Of a DNA stretch of 36,806 bases, positions 7,573-36,238 are shown in pieces. The stretch spans positions 1-36,806 of the forward strand of contig PMTV01000044.1 of NCBI GenBank assembly GCA_003167215.1, written 5' to 3'. Positions within the stretch are counted from its first letter, which is position 1. Every line of letters begins with the position of its first letter. The DNA comes from Acidobacteriota bacterium. Lineage in GTDB: Bacteria > Acidobacteriota > Terriglobia > Acidiferrales > UBA7541. Position numbers and translations under genes: made by a program. The notes below the pieces were generated by a model that ran no database searches, was not told where the DNA came from, and saw nothing but the letters and a program-made list of their open reading frames with translations.

Positions 7573-8004
7573 CGAGCCGGAGTGCAAGGTGCGGAATGAT
7601 ATTGAACTGGCAGGGTGTTTTCAATGGCAATTAAAACTATCGCTTGACGGGAAAGGCCGTTGGGTTAGAGAATTCGCCCTGTTTCCCCCCCAATTGAAGT
7701 TTTGTCCGAGGGCAACCCCAGACTTGCTCCCGAATCTAAGCTTGGGCGTAGAGCGGGAAAGGGTGTTTGGTTTCGGAGTTGCACCCTTCAGGGCAGGGTG
7801 CAAAGGCGCCTGAATCGGCAAGTCCTAGTTAAGTGGCTTACGAACACCACCATAGGCGGTAAGTGCATATTTTCAATATTCCTAGACGAGGTACGTCGGT
7901 ACTAATTTTGGTCAAATTTTTTCCCATTTGCCTGCACGGACAAGAGGCATAAATCCAGCTTTCGAGATAACCCGGCGGGGCGCAGACGCGTGAGAGGTAT
8001 CAAG
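7573..8004. other. 432-base intergenic region between divergent permease and giant NHL protein
   Basis: No convincing gene is visible. It contains one perfect 8-bp inverted repeat (listed separately at 7779-7803) and AT-rich tracts around 7868-7925 that may hold the promoter of the downstream gene. I could not identify a defensible -35/-10 pair or a known riboswitch. Confidence 0.5.
7779..7803. repeat. Inverted repeat TTGCACCC/GGGTGCAA
   Basis: Perfect 8-bp arms (7779-7786 and 7796-7803) flank a 9-base loop that itself contains GGGC. No T-tract follows on either strand, so a standard terminator is unlikely. It may be an intergenic repeat element or an RNA hairpin in the 5' leader of the giant gene. 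Confidence 0.45.
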
Positions 8005-11000
8005 ATGCGACGGAATTGCCTTCCAGTAGGTCCGAAATCACCCAACGTATTTGGCGCCGCAACGCGACGCCGGCGATATCTGGCTCGCGTCTTGTCGGTG
8101 TTGGTGTTGCTCCTGTTTGCAAGCATCGCGCACGCGCAAAACACGATCTCCACGGTCGCGGGGAGCGCTGCGCCTAACAATGTGTCTCCGACCGCAGCGT
8201 CAATCGAGGGTCCGGTAGGAGTTGTTCGGGATGGCTCGGGCAATCTATACGTCCTCACCGACAGTGGCGTGGTCTACAAAGTAACAATTCCACCGACTGG
8301 CGCGCCCAGCACGTTGGTGATTTTTGCCGGGAATAGTGACGCAGGACACGCGACGAGCGGTATCCAGGCGACCGCGGCAAGAACGGACGAACCGGACGGC
8401 GGGGCGTTGGACGCGAACGGTAATTTCTATTTTGCCGACGGAGGCAACTGCGTAATCCGGGAGGTTGTTGCCGCGACCGGGATCATCAATACGGTGGTTG
8501 GAAACGGGACCTGCGGTTTTTCGGGGGACAATGGCCCGGCAACGAGCGCCGAGCTCAATTTCCCCCAAGGCATTGCTTTCGATGGTTCCGGAGATCTGTT
8601 CATAGCGGACATCAACAACAATGTGATTCGCCGCGTTGACGGATCAACCAAGGTCATCACAACCTATGCCGGCACCGGCGCTCAGGGATTCAACGGAGAC
8701 AACGGCCCGGCAACCTCGGCCACGTTCAGGTTCCCGCAAGCGGTGGCCACTGATGCGAATGGAAATCTTTTCATCGCGGATACCCAGAACAATGTAATTC
8801 GTCGTGTGGATGTGGGGACCAAAGTCATCACGACTGTGGTTGGAACAGGAACCTTCGGCTACAGCGGCGACGGCGGGTTGGCGACGGCAGCGACGATGCA
8901 AGATCCCGGCGGCATAGTGGTGGATGCTTCAGAGAATCTCTATATCGCCGATAGCGGTAATGCAGTCGTTCGAAAAGTGACGGCGGCAACGAACATAATC
9001 ACGACGATCATCGGCAATCACGGATTCGGATTTGGCGGCGATGGAGGGCCGGCGTTGTCGGCCACCCTGACGAATCCTTTTTTACTGGCTGTTGATTCTG
9101 CCACTGGGAATGTCTGGATCCCTGACTATTGGAATAATCGCATTCGGCTTTATAGCCCCGGCAATAACAACGAGATTACGACTGTGGTCGGGAACGGCTT
9201 AGTGGGCGACGGGGGACCGGCGACCGAAGCCAGCTTCTACGATCCGCGAAGTCCCATACTGGATTCGCAAGGCAATCTTTACATCGTTGATGCGCAAAAC
9301 AATCGAATACGTAAAGTCGACACGAGTCAAAACATATCGACAGTTGTGGGGAACGGGATCGTGTGTCCACAACCGCAAGAGTCGTGCGGCGATGGCGGAG
9401 CACCCCTGAGTGCTTCGCTGAATATTCCGCGCACAGTCACGATAGACCCCTCCGGGAATCTAATCATCGCGGATTCAGGTGACAATCGGATTCGCGAGGT
9501 AACAGACGGGAATATCACGACGATTGCGGGAACCGGACCGGCTGGCTTTAGTGGAGACGGCGGTCCGGCAACTAGTGCGGAACTCAACAATCCTCGGGGA
9601 GTGGTTCTCGATTCCACCCAGAATATCTATTTTGTCGATGCGGTGAACAATCGTGTCCGGAGAATCGACGCGACCACTGGCGATATTTCCACGATTGCGG
9701 GAAACGGAGTTAATGGGAACGCGCCTTCGGGGTGCCAGGGACAGGGCAGTTTCTCGGGAGACGGAGGGCCTGCGATCAGCGCTACTCTAAATTGCCCGCT
9801 CGGTCTCGACATCGATTCAAAAGGGAACCTTTTCGTCTCGGACACTCAAAATAGTCGAATCCGAAGAATCGATGCCGTAACGCAGATCATTACAACTGTC
9901 GCTGGGAACGGAACTGCGGGATTCTCAGGTGATGGCGGAGCGGCTACGTCCGCAATGCTGAATAACCCCGACAGGATATCCATAAACGCAGCGGGGAATT
10001 TCTTTATCTCCGACACGAATAATCAACGGATCCGGCGAGTGGACGGAACAACCGGGATTATCACGACGTTTGCGGGAAACGGGAACTTCGGATTCGCCGG
10101 CGATGGCGGCCCGGCAGTGTCAGCCAGCTTCTCTACGCCGACCGGAGTCGTCGTAACAAGTCAAGGAAACATGTACGTGGGCGATCTGCTTAACAACCGG
10201 ATCAGGCTGGTGCTGCTTAATCCCAACGTAACTATTTCCAGTAGCAGCGCGCCATTCGGAAACCAACCAATCAGCGTTGGTGCAACTCCTCTGCCGGTGA
10301 CAGTGACCAACTCTGGGGACGCGCCTCTTACGATTTCGAGTATTGCGCTCACGGGGGCTAGTGTGTTTTCGCTCGCTACCTCAGCGACTCCCTGCCCGGT
10401 GGCTCCTGCGACGCTGGCGGTTGGGGCGAATTGCGTGATCGAGGTGGCATTTACGCCCACGCAGTTCGTTGCGTCTACCGGGACGATTACAATCACGGAC
10501 AACGCCCCTACAACCACCCAGACAATCAACGTGTCGGGAACGGGCGCAGCGGCTCTGACCGTTCAGGTGACAGCAGGGACCGGAAGCGTCAGCAGTTCGC
10601 CTGCCGGAATCACTGCCTGCGCGACAACTTGCACAGCCAACTTCACGGGCAATAGCTCAGTCATACTGACAGCAGCGCCGGGCACGAACTTTACGTTTTC
10701 TGGTTTCACGAACTGTGCGTCGACGGGTGCTCTGACTTGTTCGGTGACAATGAGCGCAGCCGAAACCGTCACGGCCGCTTTTACGAGTTCCGGCGGTGGA
10801 GGCGGAGGGTTGACGATCAGCCCGAACACCTTGCCCAACGGGGCTATCGGAGCCCCCTATGGCCAGACTCTGGCAGTAAGCGGCGGAACTGCGCCATATA
10901 ATTTCACGATCTCCGCGGGGGCGCTGCCCGCGGGATTAACGTTGGGCGCCACAAGCGGGACGATCGCGGGAGTGCCCACGGGTCCAGCCGGAGCGCCATC

Positions 11001-14000
11001 ATTCGCAGTTCACGTAACCGACTCTTCGGCGACTCCGCTGACCGGGAGCGCCAGCCTTACCATCACAATCACTGCAGCCGATGCCAGCAACAATGCTGAA
11101 CTGAACGGGAGCTATGCCCTTTTGTTCCAAGGATTCATCGACAGCGACGGGACGATGGTTGTGGCAGCGGGCAGCTTGCTCGCCGACGGACACGGCAACA
11201 TCAGTCCCGGCGGCTTCGTAGATGCCGACGGCTCAACCGGCGTGCAGCCCACGCAGGAGATTACTTCAGGTACGTATACGATTGGCGCCGACAACCGGGG
11301 AACCATGTCCCTGGCTGTTGCAGGCGGCGGTGGGATCACTTTTGCTTTTTCGGTGGGAGACATACAGTCCGGAGTCGCCACCAAGGCGCGGATTATCCGG
11401 TTTGATGACGTGAGCGGCACCAACGGAACGACTGGATCAGGTGTGCTGCTGAAGCAGGATCCTTCCATATTTGCGCTTAACGCCCTCCACGGATCGTACG
11501 CATTTGGCGAGAGCGGCACTGACTTGACCAATGGAGATCCTGAGTCGGGCGTGGGCTTCGTGAACGCCGACGGGAACGGGAATTTCACAACGGGCGGTCT
11601 TGTTGACTTGGACGACGGTGGGGCAATCGTGCCCAGTGCGGCGATATCGGGAACCTATGCGCTGACCAATGAAACAGTCTCGAGTGGGCGTCTCTCGGCC
11701 AGCATCACGATTGCGGGAGTAAACGGCACCACCTCGCAAGTTTTGTACATCGTTTCTGCAAGCCAGGTGGTGTTCATCAGCATAAACGCAACTACAAACT
11801 CGATATTCAGCGGGATGGCTCAGTTGCAGGTGCCGCCCACCGGCGGCTTCGGCTTGAGCTCGCTTATAAACAATAGCGTTGTCGCAGTGCAGGGGAGGCA
11901 GGCCGACGGATCGCCTATCGTCCTTATCGGATCTCTTGCGACGGATGGCAACGGTATTTTCGCGCTTTCTTACGTCCAAAACAATGGCGACACATCGGTT
12001 TCGGCTACGGCCGGCGGCACGTACGCCGTGGATACAAATAGCCGGGCGAAGCTGACCTACACGAGCGGCGGTTTCGCTCCAACCATCATGTATTTGGACG
12101 GACTGAATCAGGGATTTGCGGCCGCTACGGATGCAAATGCTTCTTCGGGTCCCTTGGATCCGGGGGTCTCAAGCTACAATAATGCGACTCTTTCCACATC
12201 CGACAACTTCTTCTTCGGCACGGTTGCTCCGGCGAGTAATAAGAACACTAACGAGTCCGGAGTGGCTTCATTTGGCGCGACCACGGTTCAATCCGTGGCT
12301 GATGACAGTGGTCCGGGCGGTGCTTTACTTGGCGACATAGTGGTCTCACAGTCTTACGATGTTGCGACGAATGGACAATTGTCGTTCGGCGGCCGCGCAG
12401 CTGGTTATGTGGCTTCTGGTTGCAAGATCGAGCTGGTTTCGAATGTCACTACGATTCCCGGACTCACGACGGCCGAGTGCCAGGTGTTGCAATCTACGCT
12501 CACGGTGACAGAAGCCGGGACGGGCACTGGGACGGTTTCGAGCAGTCCCGTGGGAATCACTTGTCCGGCGACGACGTGCTCAGCCAGCTTCGAGAGTGGT
12601 ACTCAAGTTGTGCTTACGGCGACGCCGACTGGCGGCTCGACGTTCGGCAGTTTCACCACGAACTGCATCCCAGCCAATCCGCAGACGAATCCGCCGAGCT
12701 GTACGATAGCGATGAGCGGATCTCCGACGGTGGCAGTGACGTTTACTGCGGGAAGCGGTATCCCGCCGGCATTGGCGATTACGAAGAGCCACACCGGAAA
12801 CTTCACACAGGGACAGCAGAATGCAACGTACACGGTTACAGTGTCGAATGGAGCGAATGCCGGGCCAACCAGCGGGACGATTACGGTGACGGACACGATT
12901 CCGGCCGGGTTGACGCTAGTGTCCATGGTGGGAACCGGCTGGGCGTGTGCAGCGAACACTTGTACGAACAGCACTGTATTAGGGGCGGGCGCGAGTTCGA
13001 CGATTACGGTAACGGTGAATGTGGCGAGCAACGCAGCAGCATCTGTGACGAATGCGGTGAGCGTGTCGGGAGGAGGATCTGCGGCAGCTAACGCCACAAA
13101 TCCGACGACGATCACGACTTCAGGCGGAGGCGGCAGCGGAATCGCGACTGTTAATCCGAACCCCTTGGCGTTCGGAGGAGTGCAGGTCAGCGTTTCGAGT
13201 GCGTTATCGTTCACGCTTCAGAACACGGGCACGGGCCCATTGGGAAGTATCGCTTTTTCGGTGACTAACCCGGATTACACGATTACGACCAACACATGCG
13301 CTACAACTCTTGCTGCCGGTTCCGCGGCTTGCACGATTACGGTGACCTTTACGCCCAGTTTCCAGGCTCCGGATACAGGGGCGGTCGTGATTACCGATGA
13401 CAGCTCAGCCGGGCCAACAACCGAGTTGCTGTCGGGCGTGGGAGTTGGACCAATCTACGTGCTGCCGTTCGAGATGTTCTACGATGGAATAACACCGGGA
13501 ACGACTAGCCCGGCACAAACGGCGACGCTGTTCAACACGACAGATACAGTACTATCCGTTACCGGAGTAACGTTCGTAGGAAATGCCGCTTCGGATTTCT
13601 CGGTGACCAGCAACGGGTGCGGCGACGGTGCCGATCCGAGCTGCCCGATCGGTGTTGCGTTCACTCCTTCGACGACTGTGCTAGGACCGCGCACCGCGGA
13701 CCTGACAATTGCAACGAACTCGGAGACCACTCCCTCGGTAGTTAGTCACTTAACGGGAAATGGCGCCATTCAGCATCTACCGGGATTCACCGCTAATTCG
13801 TTCCCGCCGAACGATGACGACTCAACGAGCGCGGTCAACCTGCCGTTCTCGATGAATTTCTTTGGCACTACTTACAATCAGTTGTATGTAAACAACAACG
13901 GGAACGTGACTTTTGGTGAGCCGTTTGGGACGTATACGCCCTTTGGTTTGACCGGAAATATCGGAGTTCCGATCATCGCACCGTTCTTCGCTGACGTGTA

Positions 14001-15894
14001 CACGCTTACGCCGGGTTCCGACGTAGTGCACTACGGAGTGGACACGGTGAACGGCCAGCAAGCATTTGGAGTCAACTGGGAAAACGTGGCTTACTATGCC
14101 GAGCCAGACGGTGAAGATTGTCCTCCGGCAATACTGCTGAACAGCTTCCAGCTCATCGTGATTGCCCGTCCGGACACCGGGGCTGGGAACTTCGACATGG
14201 AATTCAACTACGACAAGATACAGTGGGAAACCGGAACCGCCAGCGGCGGTGTATGCGGCTTGGGTGGTTCTTCGGCGGCTGTGGGCTATTCAAACGGTAC
14301 GGGAGACGCGGGAACAAACTTTCAGCTCCCGGGTTCGCTGGTAAATGGGGCATTCCTCGATGTACCCACCGCGGCCGGATTCCCCGGACTGATCCACTCG
14401 GACCTGAGCTCCACGATGCTGGGCCGATATGAATTCCAGGTGAGAAATGGAGCGGTGCAGTCGGCGGATCTCGGTCTGACAATGACTCAATCGGCGAACC
14501 CGGTTCCGGCGGGCTCGAACCAGACTTACACGCTTACGGTGACAAACGCCGGACCCAGCGACGCGACGAATACGACAGTGTCGGATACGTTGCCGACGAA
14601 TGCCACGCTAGTGTCGGCTACACCCTCGCAGGGTGCGGCTTGTGCCGGCACGGTGACTCTGACGTGCAATTTGGGCACGGTGGCGAATGCGGGCACGGCG
14701 ACGGTGACGATTGTGGTCACCGTGAATGCGGGTGCGACGGGAACAGTGGTGAACAATGCAAGCGTTACGTCGGACCTGCCGGATCCGAATCCGGGCAACA
14801 ACACAGCCAGCGCGAGCGCGACGATTGGGGCGAGTACCAACGTCCTACTCACGATAATCCCTGGAGGAAACGGAACAGGAACGGTGAGGAGCACCCCCGC
14901 CGGTATTAATTGTGGGGCGACGTGTTCAGTCAATTTCCCCAGCGGCACTACAGTCGTGTTGACAGCTACGCCTTCTGACGGGTCAACCTTCACCGGATGG
15001 GGCGCAGGGCCGTGCGAAGGGACGGGGACGTGCACGATTACGCTTACGTCGCCGCCCACCACGGTTTCAGTGGTAGCCAATTTCGCTCAGAGTACGAACA
15101 ACTTCACCTTGGCAGTGAATGAGGCGGGGACAGGAACGGGCACGGTGACGAGCAGTCCCGCGGGAATCGTCTGCCCGCCAGCGGCGACATGCTCGGCGAG
15201 TTTTACGAGCGGCCAGGTAGTCACACTGACGGCGACGCCGACGAATGGATCGACGTTTGCCGGCTGGAGCGGAGTGGCAGGATGCCCGGGAACGGGTACA
15301 TGCACTGTGACAGTGAGCGCAGCTGTAACAGTGACCGCCGCATTCAACAGCGGGACTTCTCCGGTTACGATTGGGCTTGCTCCGGGAAGTCCTTCGACCG
15401 TGAATACAACGCCCGGGAGTAGCGCGGTGTTTGGTTTGACGCTCACTTCGTTACCGGGAGTCACCGGGACGGTGACGCTCGGATGCACGGTTATTTCTCC
15501 TAACGCCGCGGACATCTCGTGCAATCTTGTGCCGAAGGCGATCGTTTTGACCGGAAAAGCGATCAACGTTGCAATTGTGGTGAATACGTTCTGCAAAGGG
15601 GCTGTTCCGCCGTTTGGACCATCGCTGCCGGGAGGCTTAGTAGGCGGCTTGGGGATGTTGTTGGCGGGCATGTCGCTGTGCGGGGCGATGTGGACACTCA
15701 AGCGGCGTCCGCGGTGGGCGCTTTCGTTTGGGGTTCTGGTTCTGATTGCAGTGGGAATGTCGGCATGCAGCAGTTTGCCAAAATCCCCGGGAGGACAGGC
15801 AACACCGCCGGGATCGTATAATTTGGTTGTGACCGCCACGGCTCCCAATGGAGCGACCTCGAGCGTGCCTCTGACGCTGGTGGTGGGGCCATAG
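8005..15894 (+). CDS. Giant exported NHL-propeller / Ig-like / DUF11 / NIDO-like multidomain protein
   Basis: 2629 residues from ATG 8005, chosen because GAGAGG lies 7 bases upstream (an in-frame GTG at 7990 overlaps that site). A long signal peptide ends AHA|Q near residue 46. Residues ~50-740 hold about a dozen NHL repeats (GFSGDGGPATSA...P...D..GN.YIADT.NNRIRRV), likely two beta-propellers. Then follow, approximately: choice-of-anchor-D/ASPM-like Ig (742-849), InlB-B-like repeat (850-927), putative Ig (936-1025), three copies of an NGSYAxxFxG domain (1029-1492), another B-like repeat, DUF11 (1591-1707), two anchor-D domains, a NIDO-like domain (1924-2150), DUF11, two B-like repeats, and a final Ig-like domain interrupted by two membrane helices (~2542-2588). 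It is probably a surface or envelope-anchored adhesion/scaffold protein; no catalytic domain is seen. It is convergent with the GH13 gene. Confidence 0.88.
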   Translation: MRRNCLPVGPKSPNVFGAATRRRRYLARVLSVLVLLLFASIAHAQNTISTVAGSAAPNNVSPTAASIEGPVGVVRDGSGNLYVLTDSGVVYKVTIPPTGAPSTLVIFAGNSDAGHATSGIQATAARTDEPDGGALDANGNFYFADGGNCVIREVVAATGIINTVVGNGTCGFSGDNGPATSAELNFPQGIAFDGSGDLFIADINNNVIRRVDGSTKVITTYAGTGAQGFNGDNGPATSATFRFPQAVATDANGNLFIADTQNNVIRRVDVGTKVITTVVGTGTFGYSGDGGLATAATMQDPGGIVVDASENLYIADSGNAVVRKVTAATNIITTIIGNHGFGFGGDGGPALSATLTNPFLLAVDSATGNVWIPDYWNNRIRLYSPGNNNEITTVVGNGLVGDGGPATEASFYDPRSPILDSQGNLYIVDAQNNRIRKVDTSQNISTVVGNGIVCPQPQESCGDGGAPLSASLNIPRTVTIDPSGNLIIADSGDNRIREVTDGNITTIAGTGPAGFSGDGGPATSAELNNPRGVVLDSTQNIYFVDAVNNRVRRIDATTGDISTIAGNGVNGNAPSGCQGQGSFSGDGGPAISATLNCPLGLDIDSKGNLFVSDTQNSRIRRIDAVTQIITTVAGNGTAGFSGDGGAATSAMLNNPDRISINAAGNFFISDTNNQRIRRVDGTTGIITTFAGNGNFGFAGDGGPAVSASFSTPTGVVVTSQGNMYVGDLLNNRIRLVLLNPNVTISSSSAPFGNQPISVGATPLPVTVTNSGDAPLTISSIALTGASVFSLATSATPCPVAPATLAVGANCVIEVAFTPTQFVASTGTITITDNAPTTTQTINVSGTGAAALTVQVTAGTGSVSSSPAGITACATTCTANFTGNSSVILTAAPGTNFTFSGFTNCASTGALTCSVTMSAAETVTAAFTSSGGGGGGLTISPNTLPNGAIGAPYGQTLAVSGGTAPYNFTISAGALPAGLTLGATSGTIAGVPTGPAGAPSFAVHVTDSSATPLTGSASLTITITAADASNNAELNGSYALLFQGFIDSDGTMVVAAGSLLADGHGNISPGGFVDADGSTGVQPTQEITSGTYTIGADNRGTMSLAVAGGGGITFAFSVGDIQSGVATKARIIRFDDVSGTNGTTGSGVLLKQDPSIFALNALHGSYAFGESGTDLTNGDPESGVGFVNADGNGNFTTGGLVDLDDGGAIVPSAAISGTYALTNETVSSGRLSASITIAGVNGTTSQVLYIVSASQVVFISINATTNSIFSGMAQLQVPPTGGFGLSSLINNSVVAVQGRQADGSPIVLIGSLATDGNGIFALSYVQNNGDTSVSATAGGTYAVDTNSRAKLTYTSGGFAPTIMYLDGLNQGFAAATDANASSGPLDPGVSSYNNATLSTSDNFFFGTVAPASNKNTNESGVASFGATTVQSVADDSGPGGALLGDIVVSQSYDVATNGQLSFGGRAAGYVASGCKIELVSNVTTIPGLTTAECQVLQSTLTVTEAGTGTGTVSSSPVGITCPATTCSASFESGTQVVLTATPTGGSTFGSFTTNCIPANPQTNPPSCTIAMSGSPTVAVTFTAGSGIPPALAITKSHTGNFTQGQQNATYTVTVSNGANAGPTSGTITVTDTIPAGLTLVSMVGTGWACAANTCTNSTVLGAGASSTITVTVNVASNAAASVTNAVSVSGGGSAAANATNPTTITTSGGGGSGIATVNPNPLAFGGVQVSVSSALSFTLQNTGTGPLGSIAFSVTNPDYTITTNTCATTLAAGSAACTITVTFTPSFQAPDTGAVVITDDSSAGPTTELLSGVGVGPIYVLPFEMFYDGITPGTTSPAQTATLFNTTDTVLSVTGVTFVGNAASDFSVTSNGCGDGADPSCPIGVAFTPSTTVLGPRTADLTIATNSETTPSVVSHLTGNGAIQHLPGFTANSFPPNDDDSTSAVNLPFSMNFFGTTYNQLYVNNNGNVTFGEPFGTYTPFGLTGNIGVPIIAPFFADVYTLTPGSDVVHYGVDTVNGQQAFGVNWENVAYYAEPDGEDCPPAILLNSFQLIVIARPDTGAGNFDMEFNYDKIQWETGTASGGVCGLGGSSAAVGYSNGTGDAGTNFQLPGSLVNGAFLDVPTAAGFPGLIHSDLSSTMLGRYEFQVRNGAVQSADLGLTMTQSANPVPAGSNQTYTLTVTNAGPSDATNTTVSDTLPTNATLVSATPSQGAACAGTVTLTCNLGTVANAGTATVTIVVTVNAGATGTVVNNASVTSDLPDPNPGNNTASASATIGASTNVLLTIIPGGNGTGTVRSTPAGINCGATCSVNFPSGTTVVLTATPSDGSTFTGWGAGPCEGTGTCTITLTSPPTTVSVVANFAQSTNNFTLAVNEAGTGTGTVTSSPAGIVCPPAATCSASFTSGQVVTLTATPTNGSTFAGWSGVAGCPGTGTCTVTVSAAVTVTAAFNSGTSPVTIGLAPGSPSTVNTTPGSSAVFGLTLTSLPGVTGTVTLGCTVISPNAADISCNLVPKAIVLTGKAINVAIVVNTFCKGAVPPFGPSLPGGLVGGLGMLLAGMSLCGAMWTLKRRPRWALSFGVLVLIAVGMSACSSLPKSPGGQATPPGSYNLVVTATAPNGATSSVPLTLVVGP

Positions 15895-34419: not shown

Positions 34420-34495
34420 CGAGGACGGAGCAGAACACTCGTACTCTGGTTCTCGTGGATGGAGAAGTCGGGATGCTCCAGCGGAGAGTGACTAG

Positions 34496-36238
34496 GTGAA
34501 ACTTCGTGCGCTTGCGCTCGATTACGACGGCACCATTGCGCAGGATGGAGTCTTGAATGTGGACGTCAAGACCGCCATCGCGGAAGCGCGCGCACACGGG
34601 CTGATCGTGGTCCTCGTAACCGGACGTGTGCTGTCGGACCTCAAATGTGTAGCTGGGGAAGACTTGAGTTTTCTGGATGCGGTAATCGCAGAAAACGGAG
34701 CGGTATTGGCGTTCCCAAATGGTTATTCGAGGCTGATCGGTCAGAGCGCACCGCAAGCCCTCCTAGAGGAATTTAGGCGCCGCGGGATTGATTTCACTAC
34801 TGGCCAGTGTGTCTTAGAAGCGGACGCCGCATTCGCGCCGAAGATTCTGGACGTAATCAGAGACATGCAGCTACCGCTGGTCTTAATGTTCAATCGCAGC
34901 CGCTTAATGGTGCTCCCGCAAGGAGTGAGCAAAAGCGTCGGATTACGGCGCGCTCTTACGGTGCTACATCTCTCCCCTCACAATGCTATCGCGGTCGGAG
35001 ATGCCGAAAACGATCACGATTTGCTGGCCGCTTGCGAATTCGGAGTGGCTGTCGCTTGGGGCAGCCCGGCACTTTGCAAAATAGCCGACCAAGTTCTAAG
35101 CGGCGCTGGGCCGGAAGCGGTCGCCCCATTCGTTCGGCAAGCAGCCGAGGAGTGGAAAATACCACCCAGCCGAATGCAACGTCATCAAATAGCGCTGGGG
35201 ACCGCGCGAGATGGCCATACCGTCGCACTCTCTGTCTCAGGCCGGAATCTTCTCGTATCCGGAGATCCACGCTCTGGAAAGTCCTGGATAACTGGGCTAA
35301 CCTGCGAAAAGCTGATCCTGCAGGGGTATTCAGTCTGCGTGATTGATCCCGAAGGGGATTACCGCACGCTCGAATCGCTTCCCGGTGTCGTCGTATTCGG
35401 CGGTAACGAACCGCAGCCCCGACTTCCAGACATTGCGCGTGTGCTTCGCCACCCGGACATGAGTGTCGTCGTTGATCTTTCCCATTTGGCCTACAAAGAT
35501 AAGATTGACTATCTTCACTCCGTTTTGCCAATGGTGGCCGCTGTCCGGAGAGCAACGGGCTTGCCTCATCGTATCGTGATTGACGAAGCTCACTATTTTC
35601 TACATGACCCAAGCGGCCGCCAGCTCTTGGACCTGAGCTTGAACGCATACACACTCGTTACCTACCGTCCGTCTGATTTGAGCCTAGACCTTCGAGCTGG
35701 CATCGAAGCTATCGTGGTGAAACGTATGACTGATCCCTCACAGGTGGCAACACTGCTTAACATGGCCTGTGAGCAAGGCTTCGACACCGATTGGAAGACT
35801 GCTCTCGAATCATTGGAGCCGAACCAAGCTGCTCTTTTGCCAGGCCCCGAAGAAGCAGAAGGAAAATTTCGGAGCTTCGAACTCTTACCTCGGCTGACTT
35901 CACATGTGCGGCACAAGACGAAGTATTTCGATTTAGAATTGATCGACGAACTTGGATTCGTGTTCACAGACAACGGCAAACCTGTCGGGCAGCCAGCATG
36001 CACACTGCAGGAGTTTGTGTTGGCGTTAAAGACTTATCCCACATCCGTGCTTGAAGGGCATGTCCATCGGGGGGACTTCTCTCAATGGATCTTAGATGTA
36101 TTTCATGACCCCATCCTGGCGACGGACATTCGAAAAATCGAGCACCGATATCGGCTTGGACACATACGAGACCTTTGCAGTTCGATCGGAGCAGCCATCG
36201 ATGGGCGGTACGAGCTTTCGCTAGAAAAGTGCGGCTAG
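34496..36238 (+). CDS. HAD-IIB phosphatase fused to a HerA/DUF87-type ATPase
   Basis: 580 residues from GTG 34496 (GGAGAG 7 bases upstream). Residues 1-215 form a complete HAD hydrolase of the Cof/sucrose-phosphatase type: DYDGT (Asp9, Asp11), VTGR (Thr42), Lys146 and GDAEND (Asp169/Asp173), with a C2-type cap between motifs II and III. Residues ~225-480 form a HerA-like ATPase: Walker A GDPRSGKS (256-263), the VIDPEGDY motif typical of HerA/DUF87, and Walker B RIVIDEAH (Asp363, Glu364). The C-terminal ~75 residues (YPTSVLEGHVHRGDFSQWIL...) resemble DUF5752, seen beside sugar enzymes. A phosphatase joined to a DNA-translocase-like ATPase is an unusual pairing; the substrate could be a sugar phosphate. 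It is divergent from the PRTase gene with shared dyads. Confidence 0.88.
   Translation: MKLRALALDYDGTIAQDGVLNVDVKTAIAEARAHGLIVVLVTGRVLSDLKCVAGEDLSFLDAVIAENGAVLAFPNGYSRLIGQSAPQALLEEFRRRGIDFTTGQCVLEADAAFAPKILDVIRDMQLPLVLMFNRSRLMVLPQGVSKSVGLRRALTVLHLSPHNAIAVGDAENDHDLLAACEFGVAVAWGSPALCKIADQVLSGAGPEAVAPFVRQAAEEWKIPPSRMQRHQIALGTARDGHTVALSVSGRNLLVSGDPRSGKSWITGLTCEKLILQGYSVCVIDPEGDYRTLESLPGVVVFGGNEPQPRLPDIARVLRHPDMSVVVDLSHLAYKDKIDYLHSVLPMVAAVRRATGLPHRIVIDEAHYFLHDPSGRQLLDLSLNAYTLVTYRPSDLSLDLRAGIEAIVVKRMTDPSQVATLLNMACEQGFDTDWKTALESLEPNQAALLPGPEEAEGKFRSFELLPRLTSHVRHKTKYFDLELIDELGFVFTDNGKPVGQPACTLQEFVLALKTYPTSVLEGHVHRGDFSQWILDVFHDPILATDIRKIEHRYRLGHIRDLCSSIGAAIDGRYELSLEKCG

Follow-up and report, generated by a model that had tools for sequence, protein, structure and literature searches.

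The gene at positions 34496-36238 of the window, by which we mean the whole stretch of 36,806 nucleotides of Acidobacteriota DNA that was analysed, encodes one chain in which a HAD-IIB phosphatase domain, a HerA-like ATPase core and an OrfY/DUF5752-like tail follow one another, and we regard this fusion as real and conserved with hardly any room for doubt. The best explanation that we can offer for its role, held tentatively and at somewhat under even chances, is that of a stress-associated, ATP-gated sugar-phosphate phosphatase of the trehalose-6-phosphate (T6P) type with a trehalose-linked tail.

Architecture and distribution of the fusion gene

The open reading frame comprises 580 codons for amino acids, starts with GTG, has no internal stop and corresponds to one intact gene. 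Its features and those of its surroundings are given below, with motif conservation scored over 27 homologue rows.

34483-34488 (+): GGAGAG, probable ribosome-binding site, 7 bases 5' of the GTG (sequence)
34496-36238 (+): whole gene, HAD-IIB, HerA-like ATPase core and OrfY/DUF5752-like tail; conserved over its full length
34496-35152 (+): HAD-IIB phosphatase domain with short C2B cap, residues 1-219; PF08282 at 1.4e-20, Z 26.7 to 1wr8 over 221 residues
34520-34528 (+): HAD motif I, D9-Y-D11; D9 and D11 invariant
34619-34621 (+): HAD motif II, T42; conserved in 90% or more of the rows
34931-34933 (+): HAD motif III, K146; invariant
34997-35014 (+): HAD motif IV, GDAEND, residues 168-173; G168, N172 and D173 invariant, D169 nearly so
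35177-35905 (+): HerA-like RecA-fold ATPase core, residues 228-470; DUF87 at 24.2 bits, Z 25.3 to 4d2i over 232 residues
35261-35284 (+): Walker A, GDPRSGKS, residues 256-263; G256, G261 and K262 invariant
35345-35359 (+): DPEGD motif, residues 284-288, counterpart of the HerA DxxGEY by profile alignment; D284, E286, G287 and D288 invariant
35570-35593 (+): Walker B, RIVIDEAH, residues 359-366; D363 and E364 invariant
35909-35926 (+): RHxxKY signature at the ATPase/tail junction, residues 472-477; R472, H473, K476 and Y477 invariant
35906-36223 (+): OrfY/DUF5752-like tail, one repeat, residues 471-576; 4cso profile at 7.4e-12, fold Z 10.6, rmsd 2.1 over 91 residues
33564-34373 (-): phosphoribosyltransferase (PRTase)-fold protein, divergent neighbour; PF00156 at 3.5e-14, near the fusion also in L011, L020, L021 and L027
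32828-33481 (-): stress-type protein with three BON domains; PF04972 at 2e-45, near the fusion also in L005, L025, L030 and L045
36325-36804 (+): MFS_3-type transporter (Pfam), 87 bases 3' of the fusion, running off the contig end
30262-31353 (-): phage-type tyrosine integrase, about 3 kb upstream of the PRTase/BON pair; PF00589 at 3.4e-12
7990-15894 (+): open frame of 2634 codons (ORF list)

The three parts proposed in the original prediction were recovered concordantly by Pfam and NCBIfam matches, by fold matches and by a profile of the tail, and are therefore real; the four HAD motifs, Walker A and B and the motif of the PEGDY region, which had been read as intact, proved invariant or nearly so over the 27 homologues. 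A model of the protein produced with AF2 from 27 family members reached a pLDDT of 87.7 and a pTM of 0.80. An assembly artefact or a chance frame was rejected, since no fewer than 25 other genomes, as well as complete plasmids, showed the same domain order. RefSeq labels the full-length homologues only as 'HAD-IIB family hydrolase', and a search limited to open-access papers yielded no description of HerA/HAD fusions, DUF5752 or 4cso, in line with the earlier statement that no described function is known for this arrangement. At the ATPase/tail junction, no HerA counterpart of RHxxKY was noted, and it is a matter of speculation that this signature could replace an arginine finger in cis.

Full-length homologues with 27-65% identity were found in Acidobacteriota, Rokubacteria, Pseudomonadota, Cyanobacteria, Actinomycetota, Bacteroidota and others. 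The contigs that carry full-length relatives are labelled Acidobacteriota, Rokubacteria, Desulfofustis, Acidimicrobiia, Deltaproteobacteria, Chitinophaga, Pseudomonas and Melainabacteria; several of these relatives are metagenome bins, so single phylum labels have to be taken with care. Complete replicons that carry the fusion were found in Aminobacter, Sinorhizobium, Agrobacterium, Paraburkholderia, Caballeronia, Synechococcus and Nonomuraea. Among 297 genomes of the phylum Acidobacteriota it was present in 19, five of them with split or contig-edge pieces. A phage origin was rejected, phage matches being weak and partial only. In L012 the open frame measures 1058 amino acids, the extra length being upstream read-through.

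The two halves had been expected to turn up always as separate genes if the join were an artefact, and this is not what we observed: the HAD half exists also as a solitary gene, and ATPase plus tail without HAD was not found as a separate gene in the genomes searched or in the plasmid collection. ATPase-tail matches outside full fusions were contig-edge or broken-frame pieces (G299, G311, G318, G342, G283) or, in G347, an 80-residue frame with a stop, and within the plasmid collection the tail was encountered only in the fusion. In L027 / L049, G311:C49 and G342:C143, HAD and ATPase-tail lie in separate frames, which may reflect a sequencing error, a pseudogene or a true split. A tree of 60 rows, rooted at the midpoint and with some weak inner forks, required five label changes between solitary and fused forms. 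A few solitary HAD lineages branch outside the fusions, and the solitary HADs of Mesorhizobium are nested among fusions, with full support for their position next to that of Aminobacter, the HAD half therefore being the part kept; from the sequences, the Mesorhizobium case reads as a loss of ATPase and tail with retention of a putative phosphatase.

The stress-type neighbours pointed out earlier (BON, PRTase) were confirmed in the window and recur at other fusion loci, together with Hsp20, Crp-type regulators and PAS/sigma-54 regulators. Of the 20 fusion genomes, 10 have a universal stress gene no more than 10 kb away from the fusion, compared with about 1.07 expected from gene density, an expectation that is an upper bound and counts relatives as independent. 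On plasmids, the fusion is accompanied by PQQ dehydrogenase, CBS, USP, phosphoketolase and Dps genes, and GT4 glycosyltransferases adjoin it in Caballeronia and Aminobacter. Recurring neighbours were tallied by probe searches, picking of the longest ORF in GC-rich DNA yielding many false frames. In L006, L007 and L008 another, different MFS gene is situated closely 3' of the fusion.

Phosphatase half, tail and trehalose context

The HAD half combines all four HAD motifs with a C2B cap, and matched the Pfam families Hydrolase_3 (1.4e-20) and S6PP (4.8e-6). Its nearest solved fold is of the small-cap PH1421/TA0175 type, model residues 1-223 matching PH1421 (1wr8) with a Z of 26.7. The best subfamily matches were archaeal-type phosphoglycolate phosphatase and Cof, all of them under their own cut-offs (79.7 bits vs 122.75 for TIGR01487, archaeal-type phosphoglycolate phosphatase), and the window protein had no match at E 0.01 to PF02358, the canonical trehalose-6-phosphate phosphatase (TPP). 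Judging from its motifs, this half is very probably an active phosphatase, and both enzyme halves look catalytically competent.

Several lines of genomic context connect this HAD clade to trehalose. In Mesorhizobium (L033, L036), genes for the HAD, a GT4 glycosyltransferase, a glucosidase (GDE/MGH1-like) and a GT20 trehalose-6-phosphate synthase (TPS) all run in one direction, and on two Aminobacter plasmids the fusion is divergent from the same GT4-glucosidase-TPS cluster. The solitary HAD adjoins TPS also in L039 and in the Terriglobia-class genomes G131 and G179. Treating the 297 genomes as independent, TPS was present in 14 of the 19 genomes with the fusion vs 91 of the 278 without it (p=7e-4); with genomes again taken as independent, the HAD clade was found in 5 of the 10 genomes that have TPS without canonical TPP vs 11 of the 95 that have both (p=0.007).

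The tail of the window protein matched DUF5752 at E 0.0027 (17.5 bits), under the cut-off of 23, and 16 of the 26 family tails matched this family. A tail sequence profile found OrfY of Thermoproteus tenax (4cso) at 7.4e-12, in both OrfY repeats, and the tail modelled alone resembled 4cso with Z 10.6 and rmsd 2.1 over 91 residues, the next-best match having a Z of 5.8. Thus, by sequence and by fold, the tail corresponds to the OrfY/DUF5752 repeat, present as a single copy instead of two in tandem. The deposition of 4cso describes it as a transcription factor, and the OrfY superfamily has been termed an uncharacterised enzymatic domain (PMC5906684).

Quite apart from the fusion, 21 of the 31 full-length DUF5752 genes in the 297 Acidobacteriota genomes are situated no more than 2 kb from TPS/TPP, which makes DUF5752 a frequent trehalose-operon protein in the phylum, and TPS is present in 29 of the 30 genomes with full-length DUF5752. 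The DUF5752 gene of L112 overlaps with the stop codon of TPP, and in L120 DUF5752, TreT, TPP and TPS stand in a row with overlapping ends. A trehalose role is therefore likely for full-length DUF5752/OrfY, and two domains of the fusion, HAD half and tail, point by separate routes to trehalose metabolism. Operons of the type DUF5752-TreT-TPP-TPS or TPS-TPP-DUF5752 were seen in Acidobacteriota in L110-L113 and L119-L122. In addition, proteins of about 1000 residues that combine a receiver-like domain, one DUF5752 repeat and a pyruvate-phosphate-dikinase ATP-binding domain were observed (L114:2709-5717, L116:2883-5864), and hits of similar length occur in many Acidobacteriota genomes.

The genome from which the window derives (95.7% complete) contains neither a PF00982 TPS nor a PF02358 TPP, and TPS was missing from at least four other fusion genomes of the genus (G004, G007, G009, G018), two or three of which are less than 90% complete. 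Among the Acidobacteriota loci read, no fusion gene was found beside TPS. Unless it is produced by a different synthase, T6P can thus not be the universal substrate, and the substrate in this genome, without a GT20 TPS, is accordingly uncertain; it could be a sugar phosphate produced by a GT4 enzyme, or some other sugar phosphate. In short, the connection with trehalose holds strongly for the clade taken as a whole, and only weakly for the gene in the window.

ATPase core and weighing of the possible roles

HerA proteins carry a HAS barrel that precedes the core, and the core holds a DNA-gripping helix bundle. The ATPase part of the fusion is a RecA-like core with Walker A and B, whose DUF87/HerA match in Pfam is barely above the cut-off (24.2 vs 23.2 bits) and whose fold matches are HerA/VirB4 motors (Z 20-25), with model residues 231-479 matching Sulfolobus HerA (4d2i) at Z 25.3. 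An N-terminal HAS barrel is absent, its place being occupied by the HAD domain (1-219), and alignments to HerA begin at model residue 228-232, directly after that domain. The helix bundle between DxxGEY and Walker B is missing as well: D284 and D363 are 79 residues apart, vs a DxxG-to-Walker B spacing of roughly 170-260 residues in the aligned HerAs. As for the trans arginine finger (the RK of 'EGRKF'), this stretch is a gap in the fusion profile alignment, and no conserved basic residue was found at the site in a wider set of 41 homologues, in which Walker B was rechecked too and D363 was replaced by N or E in two rows. Trans basic residues are needed by T. kodakarensis HerA (R466/K467; PMC12977600) and are R455/K456 in DUF4297-HerA (PMC11291478).

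Taken as predicted from sequence and model, the ATPase is a minimal HerA-fold core. Since HAS barrel, helix bundle and arginine finger are all missing, a DNA-pumping ring is unlikely, and we are confident that the ATPase is not a DNA translocase. The original prediction had called it HerA-type and had considered a hexameric ring; neither the functional sense of that name nor the hexamer was borne out; no ring was shown, and the anatomy gives no grounds for expecting one. The predicted lack of these parts argues against a HerA-type ring and would be compatible with some other oligomer.

In the mechanism that we propose, the HAD-IIB domain would hydrolyse a small sugar phosphate, with T6P or a closely related compound as the likeliest substrate, and the HerA-fold core would be a switch that binds ATP, working in cis or within a dimer, and no DNA motor. 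The core would report its nucleotide state to the HAD domain, so that phosphatase output would track the energy state of the cell, and the OrfY/DUF5752 tail would sense or dock a partner from trehalose or alpha-glucan metabolism, a role that we infer. ATP gating of the phosphatase, suggested only by the fusion and the loss of motor parts, has in our judgement an even chance of being correct; a T6P-type substrate, suggested by genomic context, falls somewhat short of that. The complete combination, a motor-type ATPase which without ring and DNA parts acts as a cis energy sensor gating the phosphatase while an OrfY-type domain ties the protein to trehalose, is doubtful when taken as one claim.

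A protein of the same architecture might instead be a broad or house-cleaning phosphatase, acting on phosphoglycolate or damaged sugar phosphates, with the trehalose links reflecting a shared stress setting only. This alternative deserves serious consideration, at a probability of roughly a third, being consistent with the sub-threshold phosphoglycolate phosphatase and Cof matches, with the missing TPS in this genome and several relatives and with neighbours that are general stress genes; against it, the solitary HAD repeatedly adjoins TPS and DUF5752 repeatedly adjoins trehalose operons. A single chain with opposed activities is a well-known arrangement in the control of sugar phosphates, and the P-loop half could accordingly be a kinase that phosphorylates the very metabolite dephosphorylated by the HAD half, with the tail binding that metabolite; the protein did give marginal profile matches to APS-kinase P-loops, yet its fold match to HerA/VirB4 motors and its DEAH Walker B, which is of the motor type, make such a bifunctional kinase/phosphatase improbable. 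About equally improbable is a HAD half serving the product of a non-trehalose glycosyltransferase (of the sucrose-, glucosylglycerate- or mannosylfructose-phosphate type), which would fit the GT4 genes adjoining the fusion in Caballeronia and Aminobacter, the S6PP match and the lack of TPS in this genome, but no partner synthase was found near the gene in the window or in most of the Acidobacteriota loci read. Finally, a hexameric HerA-like DNA or polymer translocase bearing six phosphatase sites, perhaps in defence, is very improbable despite the HerA fold, the intact Walker A and B and a PADLOC mad8 match limited to the P-loop (7.8e-8), because the HAS barrel, helix bundle and arginine finger are absent from all homologues compared, the PADLOC HerA model matched only at E 0.0044 and no NurA, Sir2 or nuclease partner was found among the neighbours read. 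A defence system was rejected as such, no effector being present among the flanking genes scanned.

Implications and comparison with known systems

The ATP-gated phosphatase reading offers a testable role for a widespread unnamed three-domain family and for DUF5752. If the ATPase does gate the phosphatase, a DNA-motor fold would have been turned into a metabolic regulator, and this would hint at the way in which some bacteria that lack a canonical T6P phosphatase finish or regulate their trehalose synthesis when stressed. The synthesis of a compatible solute would then be coupled to the ATP level in a new manner, across many bacterial phyla.

With PH1421 (1wr8) and TA0175 (1kyt) the fusion shares the fold, the short C2B cap and the four HAD motifs; these are stand-alone proteins of about 230 amino acids, whereas the fusion, 24% identical, carries the added ATPase and tail. 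OtsB (PF02358) belongs to the same HAD superfamily, has a C2B cap and plays beside TPS the role proposed here for the HAD half, but the window protein has no PF02358 match and contains extra domains. A precedent comes from S. acidocaldarius, whose HAD protein Saci_0016 is not one of the canonical TPPs, shows TPP activity and forms trehalose from T6P (PMC7688234). The likeness lies in its being a HAD protein unlike canonical TPPs and is drawn from its description; it differs in being archaeal, a monomer of 27 kDa and devoid of ATPase and tail (PMC7688234). SsoHerA (4d2i), DUF4297-HerA and SIR2-HerA have in common with the fusion the RecA-like core, Walker A/B and DxxG(E/D)Y, and differ from it in possessing the HAS barrel, the helix bundle, the trans arginine finger and a nuclease or NADase partner. 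As to OrfY of T. tenax (4cso) and DUF5752, the fusion tail equals one of their repeats: OrfY and full-length DUF5752 are stand-alone proteins of two repeats, often encoded in trehalose operons, while in the fusion a single repeat forms the end of an enzyme.
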